Source: Stappia sp. WLB 29
Lineage (GTDB): Bacteria; Pseudomonadota; Alphaproteobacteria; Rhizobiales; Stappiaceae
Length of the DNA: 64,000 nt
NCBI RefSeq assembly: GCF_023507705.1
Contig: NZ_JALBGD010000016.1
Location: 4,157 to 68,156, forward strand
Reading direction: 5' to 3'
Below are positions 3,975 through 63,919 of this stretch, one piece after another (positions within the stretch are counted from its first letter, which is position 1; each line of letters begins with the position of its first letter). A model generated the notes under the pieces. That model was not told where the DNA came from, did no database searches, and saw only the letters and a program-made list of their open reading frames with translations. Position numbers and translations under genes: made by a program.

Positions 3975-4334
3975 TCAGTCGTAATAGATCTCGTTGTCGT
4001 CGAGATAGACGTTGCTCGCCTCGCAGATGTCGATGTCGATCGGCTCGTCGAGCACCTCGCCGCCGTCGGTCCCGAGCCAGCCGACCCGGAAGGTCTGGGC
4101 GCAGGACCCGGTATCGTCCGTGAATTCGGCACGGGCCGACTCGTCCGGACCGATCGGGCTGGAGAGCCAGTTGCTCGACCAGCCGCTGCCGTCGTTGGTG
4201 TAGAAGCCGACGACGGTGTTGTCGTCCGTGTTGTTGTAGATCTGGAAGTAGCCTTCGGCGCCCGTGCCTGCCAGGGCAGCGGACGCACAAAGGAACAGCG
4301 CCGCCGAAGCGGTCGCGAGCATGCGATGGAACAT
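3975..4334 (-). CDS. Small acidic secreted protein, unknown
   Basis: I do not recognise this 119-residue protein. Residues 1-22 form a signal peptide (FHRMLATASAALFLCASAALA, cleavage after ALA), leaving a mature domain of about 97 residues that is acidic, rich in Asp, Asn, Gly and Trp, with two cysteines (SCAQTF and DICEAS) that could form one disulfide, and a tail ending DDNEIYYD. TGAGGG precedes the ATG at a workable distance. A second in-frame ATG three codons later is possible. It stands alone between ychF and the MaoC pair. Confidence 0.72.
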   Translation of the reverse strand: MFHRMLATASAALFLCASAALAGTGAEGYFQIYNNTDDNTVVGFYTNDGSGWSSNWLSSPIGPDESARAEFTDDTGSCAQTFRVGWLGTDGGEVLDEPIDIDICEASNVYLDDNEIYYD

Positions 4335-4427
4335 GCGATTTCCCTCAGGAGATGGCCGCCACGATGGCGGCGGTGCAAATCCTAGACTGCCTTCCGGGAA
4401 AGCGCGAGAGCGACCAAAGACCGACGT

Positions 4428-5528
4428 TCAGGTGTTGAACTTGAACAGCAGGACGTCGCCGTCCTTGACCACGTATTCCTTGCCCTCGTCGCGGGCCTTG
4501 CCGGCTTCCTTGGCCGGAGCCTCGCCGCCGAGGGTGACGTAGTCGTCGAAGGCGATGGTCTGGGCGCGGATGAAACCGCGCTCGAAATCGCTGTGGATGA
4601 CGCCGGCCGCCTGCGGGGCCTTGGTGCCCTTGCGGATCGTCCAGGCGCGGGCTTCCTTCGGACCGGCGGTGAAATAGGTGATAAGGTCGAGCAGGTCGTA
4701 GCCGGCGCGGATGAGCCGGTCGAGGCCCGGCTCCTCGAGACCCATGGTCTCCAGGTACTCGGCCTGTTCGGCATCGTCGAGCTGGGCGATCTCGGCCTCG
4801 ATGGCGGCGGAGATCACGACGCAGGCCGCGCCTTCCGCCTCTGCCATCTCGCGCACGCGCTCGGACTGGGCGTTGCCGGTGGCCGAGCAGGACTCCTCGA
4901 CGTTGCAGACATAGAGGATCGGCTTGGTGGTCAGCAGGTTGAGGCCGGCGAGGATCTTGCGCTCCTCCGGGGTGGAGACGTCGAGCAGGCGCGCGGGCTT
5001 GCCCTCGCGCAAGAGCTCCAGCGCTCCTTCCATGATCGGGATCACCGCCTTGGCGTCCTTGTCGCCGCCGGTCGCCTTCTTCTTGAGCGGCGCCAGGCGA
5101 CGCTCGAGGCTCTCCATGTCGGAGATCATCAGTTCGGTCTCGACGGTCTGGGCATCGGCGATGGGGTCGATGCGCCCGTCGACATGGGTGATGTCGTCAT
5201 CCTCGAAGCAGCGCAGCACATGGGCGATGGCGTCGACCTCGCGGATGTTGGCGAGGAACTGGTTGCCGAGGCCCTCGCCCTTGGAGGCGCCGCGCACCAG
5301 GCCGGCAATGTCGACGAAGGTGAGGCGCGTGGGGACGATGCTGGCGGACTTGGCGATGCGGGCGATGTCCTTAAGGCGCGGATCCGGCACCGCTACCTCG
5401 CCGGTGTTCGGCTCGATGGTGCAGAAGGGATAGTTCGCGGCCTGAGCCGCCGCGGTCTTGGTCAACGCGTTGAACAGCGTGGACTTGCCCACATTCGGCA
5501 GGCCGACAATGCCGCACTGGAATCCCAT
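4428..5528 (-). CDS. ychF: Ribosome-associated ATPase YchF
   Basis: Obg-family P-loop protein that prefers ATP and binds ribosomes; its E. coli relative affects oxidative-stress responses. The 366-residue length is standard. The P-loop GLPNVGKST is at residues 9-17, the switch II DIAGLV at 73-78, and the nucleotide-specificity box is NVEE (209-212) instead of NKxD, which is what makes YchF use ATP. A C-terminal TGS domain with ARAWTIRKGTKAPQAAG and a final LLFKFNT completes it. It starts six bases after the pth stop, so pth and ychF are surely co-transcribed. Confidence 0.97.
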   Translation of the reverse strand: MGFQCGIVGLPNVGKSTLFNALTKTAAAQAANYPFCTIEPNTGEVAVPDPRLKDIARIAKSASIVPTRLTFVDIAGLVRGASKGEGLGNQFLANIREVDAIAHVLRCFEDDDITHVDGRIDPIADAQTVETELMISDMESLERRLAPLKKKATGGDKDAKAVIPIMEGALELLREGKPARLLDVSTPEERKILAGLNLLTTKPILYVCNVEESCSATGNAQSERVREMAEAEGAACVVISAAIEAEIAQLDDAEQAEYLETMGLEEPGLDRLIRAGYDLLDLITYFTAGPKEARAWTIRKGTKAPQAAGVIHSDFERGFIRAQTIAFDDYVTLGGEAPAKEAGKARDEGKEYVVKDGDVLLFKFNT

Positions 5529-60460: not shown

Positions 60461-60493
60461 ATGGAAGTGCGGAGGAGGGGGCGGCGTTCAGGC

Positions 60494-60523
60494 AAAAAAA
60501 ATGCCGGGCCATAGGGCCCGGCA
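60494..60523 (-). terminator. Terminator of the candidate small RNA
   Basis: TGCCGGGCC/GGCCCGGCA, nine base pairs, four-base loop, with eight consecutive T on the minus strand (60501-60494). The run is the strongest T-tract in the window. The nearest minus-strand protein gene upstream of it ends 420 bases away, so it is more likely the end of a separate RNA than of the LysR transcript. Confidence 0.85.
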
Positions 60524-60631
60524 GTTATTCGATTTTGCCACATGCGTGGCGAAATCACCTTCCAGAGGGGAACAGCTGGTCGCATCACACGTCGCTGGGA
60601 GGAGGTAGCGACGAAGCAGACCAACAGCCTG
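60494..60631 (-). ncRNA. Candidate small RNA with anti-Shine-Dalgarno hairpin loop
   Basis: On the minus strand, in order: hairpin 1, a perfect 7-bp stem CGTCGCT/AGCGACG (60613-60607 and 60596-60590) holding the 10-base loop ACCTCCTCCC; a small hairpin with loop CCTCT (60572-60560); hairpin 3, about 11 bp (60556-60531); and a 9-bp GC stem (60523-60502) followed by eight T. That is a terminator-ended RNA of about 125-140 nt with no protein gene on that strand. Loops exposing CCUCCUCCC are known from alphaproteobacterial sRNAs (NfeR1/alpha-r14 and cuckoo families), where they bind mRNA ribosome sites. The 5' end is set from the promoter boxes and is approximate. Confidence 0.65.
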
Positions 60632-60637
60632 CTGCTT

Positions 60638-60666
60638 ATATGCAGTGCACAACGCGCCTATGCAAG
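60638..60666 (-). promoter_or_regulatory. Possible promoter of the candidate small RNA
   Basis: Minus-strand boxes CTTGCA (60666-60661) and GCATAT (60643-60638) are 17 bases apart, the spacing of the alphaproteobacterial consensus CTTGAC-N17-CTATAT, with four of six matches in each. Transcription would begin near 60631, some 18 bases before the anti-SD hairpin. Confidence 0.45.
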
Positions 60667-60945
60667 AAGCACTCTTGCAGGTCTGCTATGCATATTCCGC
60701 AAGGCGCTCCGCCGAGGTCTGCGCGGCTAGGCGATTTGGCGGGAAACCTTGCTCCGTTGACGGGCGAAGTGCCTGATTTCACGCCACTGCGGCAGCCTGT
60801 CGCAGGTGTGCCGTGCCGTCGAGCGAAGCAGGCTGCGCAGCCTCTGCCTGCTCTATCGGCACGTCGCGCAAGGGCGCCGGTCGTCACGCTGAGGCTTGTT
60901 TCGAAATTTGCGGTGCAACAAGAGGCGGAGCCCGGTGGCCCGCCT

Positions 60946-61842
60946 TTAGTAGGTCCAGCGCTCGGCCTTGGCCAACAGGAAGTCGCGGAACACGGCTATG
61001 CGCGCGGTGTTCTTCAGCTCGGAAGGATAGACGAAATAGGTGTCGAAACTCGGCACCTCCGCCTCCGGGAGTAACTGCACGAGGCCCGAGCTGTCTTCGT
61101 TGATATAGTCCGGCAGCATGGCGATGCCGATGCCGCGCTGGACGGCCCGCTTGATCGCCACCACATTGTTGACCCGCAGCACGCAGCGACGGGACTCGCC
61201 GGGCGGCAAACCCGCAGTTTCCAGCCAATTCATGTCGCGCAAATAGGGCGGTGCATGCTCGCCGAAGGTGATGATCCGGTGGCCGTCGAGGGCGGCGACG
61301 GACTTCGGAGCGCCGAAGCGCTGGATGTAGCCCGGCGCGGCATAGACGTGGAAGTGCACGGTGAACAGCTTGCGCTGGATCAGGTCCGGCTGCGTCGGCT
61401 GGCGCAGGCGGATAGCCACGTCCGCCTCGCGCATGCCGAGATCGAGCTCGTCGTCGTCGAAGATCAGCCTCAAGTCCATCTCCGGATAGAGGTCGATGAA
61501 CTCGTTGAGCCGCTCGGTCAGCCAAGTCGAGCCGAGGCCGACGGTGGTGGTGATGCGCAGGGCACCGGTCGGCTTCTCGCGGCTGTCGGTCAGCCGGGTC
61601 TGGGCCGCCTCCAGCTTCATGAACACCTCGCGCGCGGTACGGTACAGCACCTCGCCCTGCTCGGTCAGCAGCAGGCCGCGCGCATGCCGGTGGAACAGCG
61701 GGACCTTCAGGTCGTGCTCCAGCGCGCTGACCTGCCGGCTGACCGCCGACTGGCTCATGTTGAGCATGTCGCCGGCATGCGTGAAGCTGCCGGCCTGCGC
61801 GGCCGCGTGGAAAATCCTCAGCTTGTCCCAGTCAAGCGGCAC
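60946..61842 (-). CDS. lsrB: LysR-type regulator, LsrB/VtlR-like
   Basis: 298 residues: N-terminal winged HTH (LRIFHAAAQAGSFTHAGDML, SQSAVSRQVSALEHDL) and a LysR effector domain. Sequence style (MPLDWDKLRIFHAAAQAGSF) and position beside trxB match LsrB of Sinorhizobium/Agrobacterium and VtlR of Brucella, regulators of redox/envelope genes and of small RNAs such as AbcR2. It has a single cysteine, C220; LsrB of rhizobia is reported to sense oxidation through cysteines, so sensing may differ here. It starts 62 bases after the trxB stop, same strand. Confidence 0.88.
   Translation of the reverse strand: MPLDWDKLRIFHAAAQAGSFTHAGDMLNMSQSAVSRQVSALEHDLKVPLFHRHARGLLLTEQGEVLYRTAREVFMKLEAAQTRLTDSREKPTGALRITTTVGLGSTWLTERLNEFIDLYPEMDLRLIFDDDELDLGMREADVAIRLRQPTQPDLIQRKLFTVHFHVYAAPGYIQRFGAPKSVAALDGHRIITFGEHAPPYLRDMNWLETAGLPPGESRRCVLRVNNVVAIKRAVQRGIGIAMLPDYINEDSSGLVQLLPEAEVPSFDTYFVYPSELKNTARIAVFRDFLLAKAERWTY

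Positions 61843-61904: not shown

Positions 61905-63919
<2,015 letters not shown>

Follow-up and report, generated by a model that had tools for sequence, protein, structure and literature searches.

Which kind of RNA, if any, is encoded on the minus strand between msrP and an lsrB/vtlR-like gene is the question raised by this locus of the window, i.e. of the whole 64-kb stretch of DNA analysed here. An earlier note, made from the letters alone, had placed there an anti-Shine-Dalgarno (anti-SD) small RNA of about 125-140 nt and had linked it to the NfeR1 (alpha-r14) and cuckoo RNAs. The gene itself is borne out: at ~60494-60630 the minus strand does carry a conserved small RNA gene, about 137 nt long when counted from an inferred 5' end at about 60630. 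As to its family, we consider it highly probable that this gene encodes the AbcR (alpha-r15) orthologue of Stappia, located downstream of its presumed activator lsrB/vtlR and following an inferred course of activation and repression.

The RNA gene and its conservation

The sRNA gene (60494-60630, minus strand, 137 nt) is described here on the basis of folding, relatives, covariation and our model R1, which gives it 127.8 bits. Its first hairpin, SL1 (60575-60625), has two tiers: the outer tier is formed by 60625-60616 with 60583-60575, and the inner tier by 60613-60607 with 60596-60590. The inner tier (minus strand, 60613-60590) is a perfect 7-bp stem, CGTCGCT/AGCGACG, with the loop ACCTCCTCCC at 60606-60597, which reads ACCUCCUCCC in the sRNA. 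The loop carries the first anti-SD motif (aSD1 or M1, CTCCTCCC, 60597-60604), and a second one (aSD2 or M2, TTCCCCTC, 60565-60572) lies between SL1 and SL2. A weak hairpin at 60572-60560 stands upstream of the strong second hairpin, SL2 (60557-60530). The gene ends in a rho-independent terminator (60494-60523), i.e. a 9-bp stem whose arms span 60523-60502, with eight T next to it. The stem, the loop, the further hairpins and the terminator had all been described before and are confirmed from sequence and folding; that description is right as given but incomplete, as the outer tier of SL1 and the second anti-SD stretch, UUCCCCUC, had been missed.

Folding of the 171-nt stretch 60490-60660 yields -70 kcal/mol (z -4.28), and a 131-nt stretch gives z -3.99; in both cases none of 200 shuffles was equally low. 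The loop string ACCTCCTCCC was found once versus 0.20 expected, and 19 of 100 shuffles held at least one match. The loop string by itself is unremarkable; it is the structure and the conservation that are remarkable. Within the window aSD1 is predicted to be fully open (1.00) and aSD2 about half open (0.52).

Conservation was investigated in the window and 80 named lsrB loci, 81 in all. A plain pattern finds the sRNA within 1.7 kb downstream of lsrB in 61 of them. R1 was run on 32 sources, among them the 20 loci missed by the pattern, and added eight of these (L012, L013, L035, L037, L038, L044, L062 and L076). The link to the adjoining LsrB/VtlR-like gene, suggested earlier on account of its position, is supported by relatives lying downstream of lsrB/vtlR in 69 of the 81 loci. 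The fetched 3 kb held no high-scoring R1 match in the other 12 (L039, L045, L055, L058, L061, L065, L067-L071 and L077); L077 has only a match of 19.2 bits on the minus strand. Two Stappia loci (L012 and L013) carry a tandem pair of sRNAs at 4074-4207 and 4351-4485, each copy with its own box; all four copies have GTTCCCTC as the second motif, which is one C shorter. In four Roseibium/Labrenzia loci (L035, L037, L038 and L044) the sRNA follows lsrB at a distance of ~1.6-2.6 kb, other sequence lying between them, and scores 120.8-129.8 bits.

The alignment, A1, comprises 39 of 57 distinct extracted sequences; eight rhizobial-type sequences were kept apart for the test of R1, and ten that were near-duplicate, cut short or odd were left out. 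SL2 is unaligned across clades and absent from R1, and its place is taken in 39/39 sequences by a hairpin that reaches -3 kcal/mol or better. The loop core CCTCCC and the stretch CTGTTCCCCTCTGGA, which includes aSD2, are invariant in all 39; a variant loop, ACCTCCCC, is seen in L072. The structure pairs in 96.0% of the alignment cells, versus 88.2% in shuffles and 23-46% when it is slid along the sequences. Changes on both sides occur at 12 of 22 pairs, nine of them among the 15 pairs of the first hairpin (helices 1 and 2) and three in the terminator, where 7/7 modelled pairs are kept in 39/39 sequences. Covariation was judged by five measures: the number of further pair types was matched by 17 of 500 shuffles, and the other four measures by none. 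The check for compensatory changes in related loci, which had been proposed with the original description, hence speaks for the RNA, i.e. the stems covary in both tiers of SL1 and the loop is near-invariant. A conserved protein reading was also considered and is unlikely, because the indels among relatives come in lengths not divisible by three and the stems covary.

Gene order, predicted promoter and probable family

The lsrB/vtlR-like gene (60946-61842, minus strand), recognised as an ORF with the Pfam domains HTH_1 and LysR_substrate and by its relatives, is preceded by a trxB-like gene (61905-62894, minus strand; an ORF with Pfam Pyr_redox_2). Its product is 98% identical to the LsrB proteins of Stappia sp. 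TSB10P1A and Stappia indica SBBC 49. From lsrB toward msrP the minus strand shows, in this order, a predicted LysR box, a predicted promoter and the sRNA. The predicted LsrB/VtlR box, TGCA-N9-TGCA (60676-60692), includes GCAT-N3-AG-N3-T at 60691-60679, i.e. at -61 to -49 relative to the inferred start. The box reported for PabcR1 is GCAT-N3-TG-N3-T, also at -61 to -49 (PMC8844928), so that the window differs from it by one mismatch (AG for TG). A relaxed form that allows A or T, which was picked after inspection of the loci, occurs in 60 of 61 loci versus 0.4% of shuffles; the published form is present in 30/61 (0.15% of shuffles), and the extended form TGCA-N9-TGCA in 39/61. The predicted -35 hexamer, CTTGCA (60661-60666), was picked by eye against the alphaproteobacterial CTTGAC-N17-CTATAT, and the predicted -10 hexamer, GCATAT (60638-60643), follows 17 nt past it; 59 of 61 loci have CATAT there. 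A generic sigma-70 scan of the sRNA locus returned no promoter.

Rfam by itself cannot settle the choice between ar14 and ar15 at this locus, where all of its matches are below the cut-offs: anti-hemB (RF02837) has 24.0 bits against a cut-off of 49.5, ar14 (RF02344) 21.6 against 58.8 and ar15 (RF02345) 20.4 against 40. A search of the source genome with ar15 gives E 0.15 at the sRNA locus; of 14 unrelated control genomes, for which E values up to 10 were admitted, 12 also have some match at that level. Another ar15 match, of 17.2 bits (C1:649104-649211), is located upstream of a binding-protein gene, in antisense orientation, and we regard it as fortuitous.

We assign the RNA to AbcR/ar15 because of homology detected with R1, the exact presence of both motifs, the gene order and the VtlR-like box. 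R1, which was built without rhizobial-type sequences, matches the rhizobial-type loci in 9/9 cases (E 2e-10 to 1.9e-9, 47.4-51.4 bits), where L016 is no independent test because it is identical to L015 of A1. Rfam ar15 is over its cut-off at 8/8 rhizobial-type loci tested, in the same place as R1. At the accepted ar15 genes of L229-L231 R1 scores 30.7-51.8 bits, and it finds the tandem ar15 pairs of L229 and L230 (127/119 and 115/77 bits) at 30.7-42.2 bits. The published AbcR motifs, aSD1 CUCCUCCC in the loop of the 5' hairpin and aSD2 UUCCCCUC between SL1 and SL2 (PMC8844928), both occur exactly, at 60604-60597 and 60572-60565, respectively. The motifs described for the Brucella AbcR RNAs, M1 CUCCCA and M2 GUUCCC (PMC5461406), are found in the window sRNA as well. 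The order trxB-lsrB-sRNA agrees with the trxB-vtlR-abcR order reported for Agrobacterium (PMC7486931), and lsrB adjoins the R1 match in five of six further genomes, L234 being the exception. The sRNA locus is the only strong R1 copy in the source genome; a second AbcR copy was sought there and dismissed, the next matches being the reverse of the RNA's own terminator (20.2 bits) and one elsewhere (19.9 bits).

The kinship with NfeR1 (alpha-r14) or cuckoo RNAs proposed at the outset, which would mean an RNA that pairs with ribosome sites through several identical anti-SD loops, fits the loop CCUCCUCCC and an ar14 score marginally over that of ar15, both sub-threshold. This kinship is contradicted, and we regard it as extremely improbable. 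The source genome has alpha-r14 RNAs of its own at C1:295220-296442, two of them over the cut-off (C1:296319-296442, 71.8 bits; C1:295220-295348, 65.0 bits) and a third below it (47.3 bits), and the presence of such genuine RNAs elsewhere in the genome argues strongly against an alpha-r14 identity for the window sRNA. Moreover, R1 reaches at most 17.3 bits over 12 ar14 loci, and the covariance-model search that had been suggested for this reading leaves ar14 at the score given above, far under its cut-off. NfeR1 is reported to bear three identical anti-SD motifs (PMC8844928), whereas the window sRNA has a single CUCCUCCC loop and CCTCCTCCC occurs once only in the 64-kb window; AbcR gene order and aSD2 are present too.

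A separate, convergent family of anti-SD sRNAs that merely resembles AbcR would account for the score under the ar15 cut-off and for an SL1 that is longer, and an SL2 that is other, than in the rhizobial-type RNAs. It would not explain the common place by lsrB, the VtlR-like box and the order of the motifs, nor the graded chain of R1 scores that leads from Breoghania (L062, 85.4 bits) through Tepidamorphus (L076, 64.2 bits) to the nine rhizobial-type loci, and we hold convergence to be very unlikely. Only slightly less unlikely is that the RNA represents the 3' end of the lsrB transcript, i.e. a terminator or a processed 3'-UTR RNA without its own promoter. The location downstream of lsrB on the same strand and the empty promoter scan agree with such an origin, but in most loci a conserved -10 and a VtlR-like box separate the RNA from lsrB (59 and 60 of 61, respectively), and the RNA is intact in the four Roseibium/Labrenzia loci where it is far removed from lsrB.

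The AbcR assignment bears on how the family is covered by Rfam. Among 297 genomes sampled from the order, 12 of which belong to Stappia's family, Rfam ar15 is over its cut-off in 17 genomes and in 0/12 of the family. R1 at E 0.01 or better matches 137 genomes and 12/12 of the family, all of the latter at E 1.6e-25 or better; the two thresholds are unequal in strictness, and the R1 E-values are rough, so that matches near 0.01 may be chance. At E 0.01 ar15 matches 60/297 genomes and 5/12 of the family, and in four of these five the match coincides with that of R1, below the cut-off (E 3.8e-4 to 1.7e-3). Two family genomes show second, weaker R1 and ar15 matches away from the main locus (G116:C14:49255-49366 and G286:C18:60424-60535). 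A literature search for AbcR1 with Stappia, Labrenzia, Roseibium, Pseudovibrio or Pannonibacter gave no AbcR1 among the matches listed, which is no proof of its being unpublished. The RNA is best read as an AbcR family member, i.e. a known kind of RNA, in a lineage overlooked by the Rfam model.

Proposed regulation and targets

By analogy with the studied relatives, from which activation by LsrB/VtlR, Hfq binding and transporter repression are carried over, LsrB/VtlR would bind the predicted box and turn on a sigma-70 promoter, and the 137-nt RNA would be made up to its terminator. The CUCCUCCC of the SL1 loop and the UUCCCCUC between the hairpins may then pair with the ribosome sites of target mRNAs and would thereby stop the translation of binding proteins of ABC transporters and of other metabolic genes. 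Hfq probably takes part.

Targeting was examined with 62 binding-protein genes (63 loci minus L137, which continues the gene of L136 as its second half) and 90 other genes, with the starts picked blind to the SD sequence. Comparing the pairing of the two groups gave p 0.10 for the 16S tail and p 0.058 for aSD1, and pairing with aSD2 was no stronger for binding-protein genes (p 0.16, and 0.52 once 16S pairing was subtracted). The best of eight motifs, AGGGGA, is present in 8/62 binding-protein versus 2/90 other genes (p 0.012, uncorrected). These values give no clear support for transporter targeting. The strongest computed partner of aSD2 (-23.3 kcal/mol) is a Peripla_BP_6 gene (L121, G000:C12:252184-253233), which has AGAGGGGAAACAG before its start. 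Of 17 close relatives of the L119 gene (L187-L203), 16 have GAGGGGA ahead of the start and L198 has AGGGGAG; the motif is absent from most of 13 more distant relatives among those listed. An ordinary ribosome site could explain this retention equally.

The alpha-r14 RNAs of the source genome show CCTCCTCCC loops and alternate with three DUF1127 genes. This array (L240, G000:C1:294935-296442) has an exact box of the published VtlR form, GCATGGCTGCCGT, 284 nt upstream of its first ar14 match. The same box is 279-286 nt upstream in both other family genomes with ar14 matches (G041 and G081). Searching the source genome for TGCATRNCWGNNNTGCR gives five sites (the reversed pattern gives 0), one at the sRNA and one upstream of the array; the remaining ones are at C1:305157-305173, C34:146713-146729 and C36:97835-97851. 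In 11 of the 12 ar14 loci, i.e. all except G043, the 500 nt preceding the first ar14 match were inspected: seven loci have the relaxed box there and five the published form, versus a background of 0.05 relaxed boxes per 500 nt in the remainder of these loci. Eisfeld, in 2021, reportedly described LsrB-controlled sRNAs in Agrobacterium.

The LsrB protein of the window departs from the known redox sensor. Agrobacterium LsrB is reported to sense redox state via two cysteine pairs, one of them conserved, C144-C273 (PMC11975290). The LsrB of L229, which adjoins accepted ar15 genes, has cysteines at 142, 242 and 271, and by their spacing we take 142 and 271 as the putative conserved pair. The window protein has V142 and V271 in these places and C220 as its sole cysteine; among 84 aligned LsrB proteins a cysteine is found at the first site in 12 and at the second in 10.

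It is already shown that LsrB controls AbcR1 and NfeR1 in S. meliloti. Published work further describes DUF1127 genes under VtlR control in Brucella (PMC12595884), activation of NfeR1 by LsrB in S. meliloti (PMC10746234) and DUF1127-sRNA operons in Rhodobacter (PMC10253847), and to join these three in Stappia is our inference. It is possible, albeit doubtful, that Stappia LsrB/VtlR drives both AbcR and an operon-like DUF1127/alpha-r14 array, and that it does so via a signal different from the known thiol switch, because its LsrB has no cysteines in the positions that correspond to the conserved redox pair. If true, what would be new is that a VtlR box governs such an array and that the input is not redox, and the switch would be a general brake on nutrient uptake that predates its redox use in rhizobia.

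Significance and relation to known systems

The circuit that leads from LsrB/VtlR through AbcR to transporters has been studied in plant symbionts, Agrobacterium and Brucella. Its extension to Stappia and to relatives in Roseibium/Labrenzia, Pannonibacter and Pseudovibrio suggests that it is not bound to plant or animal hosts, and R1 together with the box makes it testable in marine laboratory strains.

The window sRNA can be compared with three known systems. With anti-hemB, known from Burkholderia unlike the present RNA, it shares a stem with a CUCCUCCC loop followed by a terminator, and the match has E 0.0023; we prefer AbcR over anti-hemB because of the gene order and aSD2. The NfeR1 and cuckoo RNAs are alike in their CCUCCUCCC anti-SD loop, but the window sRNA has one such loop and a distinct UUCCCCUC, and there are no DUF1127 genes nearby. 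From AbcR1 and AbcR2 the window sRNA differs by its longer, two-tiered SL1, its other SL2 and its ar15 score of about half the cut-off, and there is one AbcR copy in the Stappia genome versus two in S. meliloti and Agrobacterium. In other respects it is like AbcR1 and AbcR2, i.e. it shares with them the trxB-lsrB-sRNA order, aSD1 in the loop of SL1, aSD2 between SL1 and SL2, the terminator, the VtlR-like box at -61 to -49 and the occurrence of copies that are single or in tandem.
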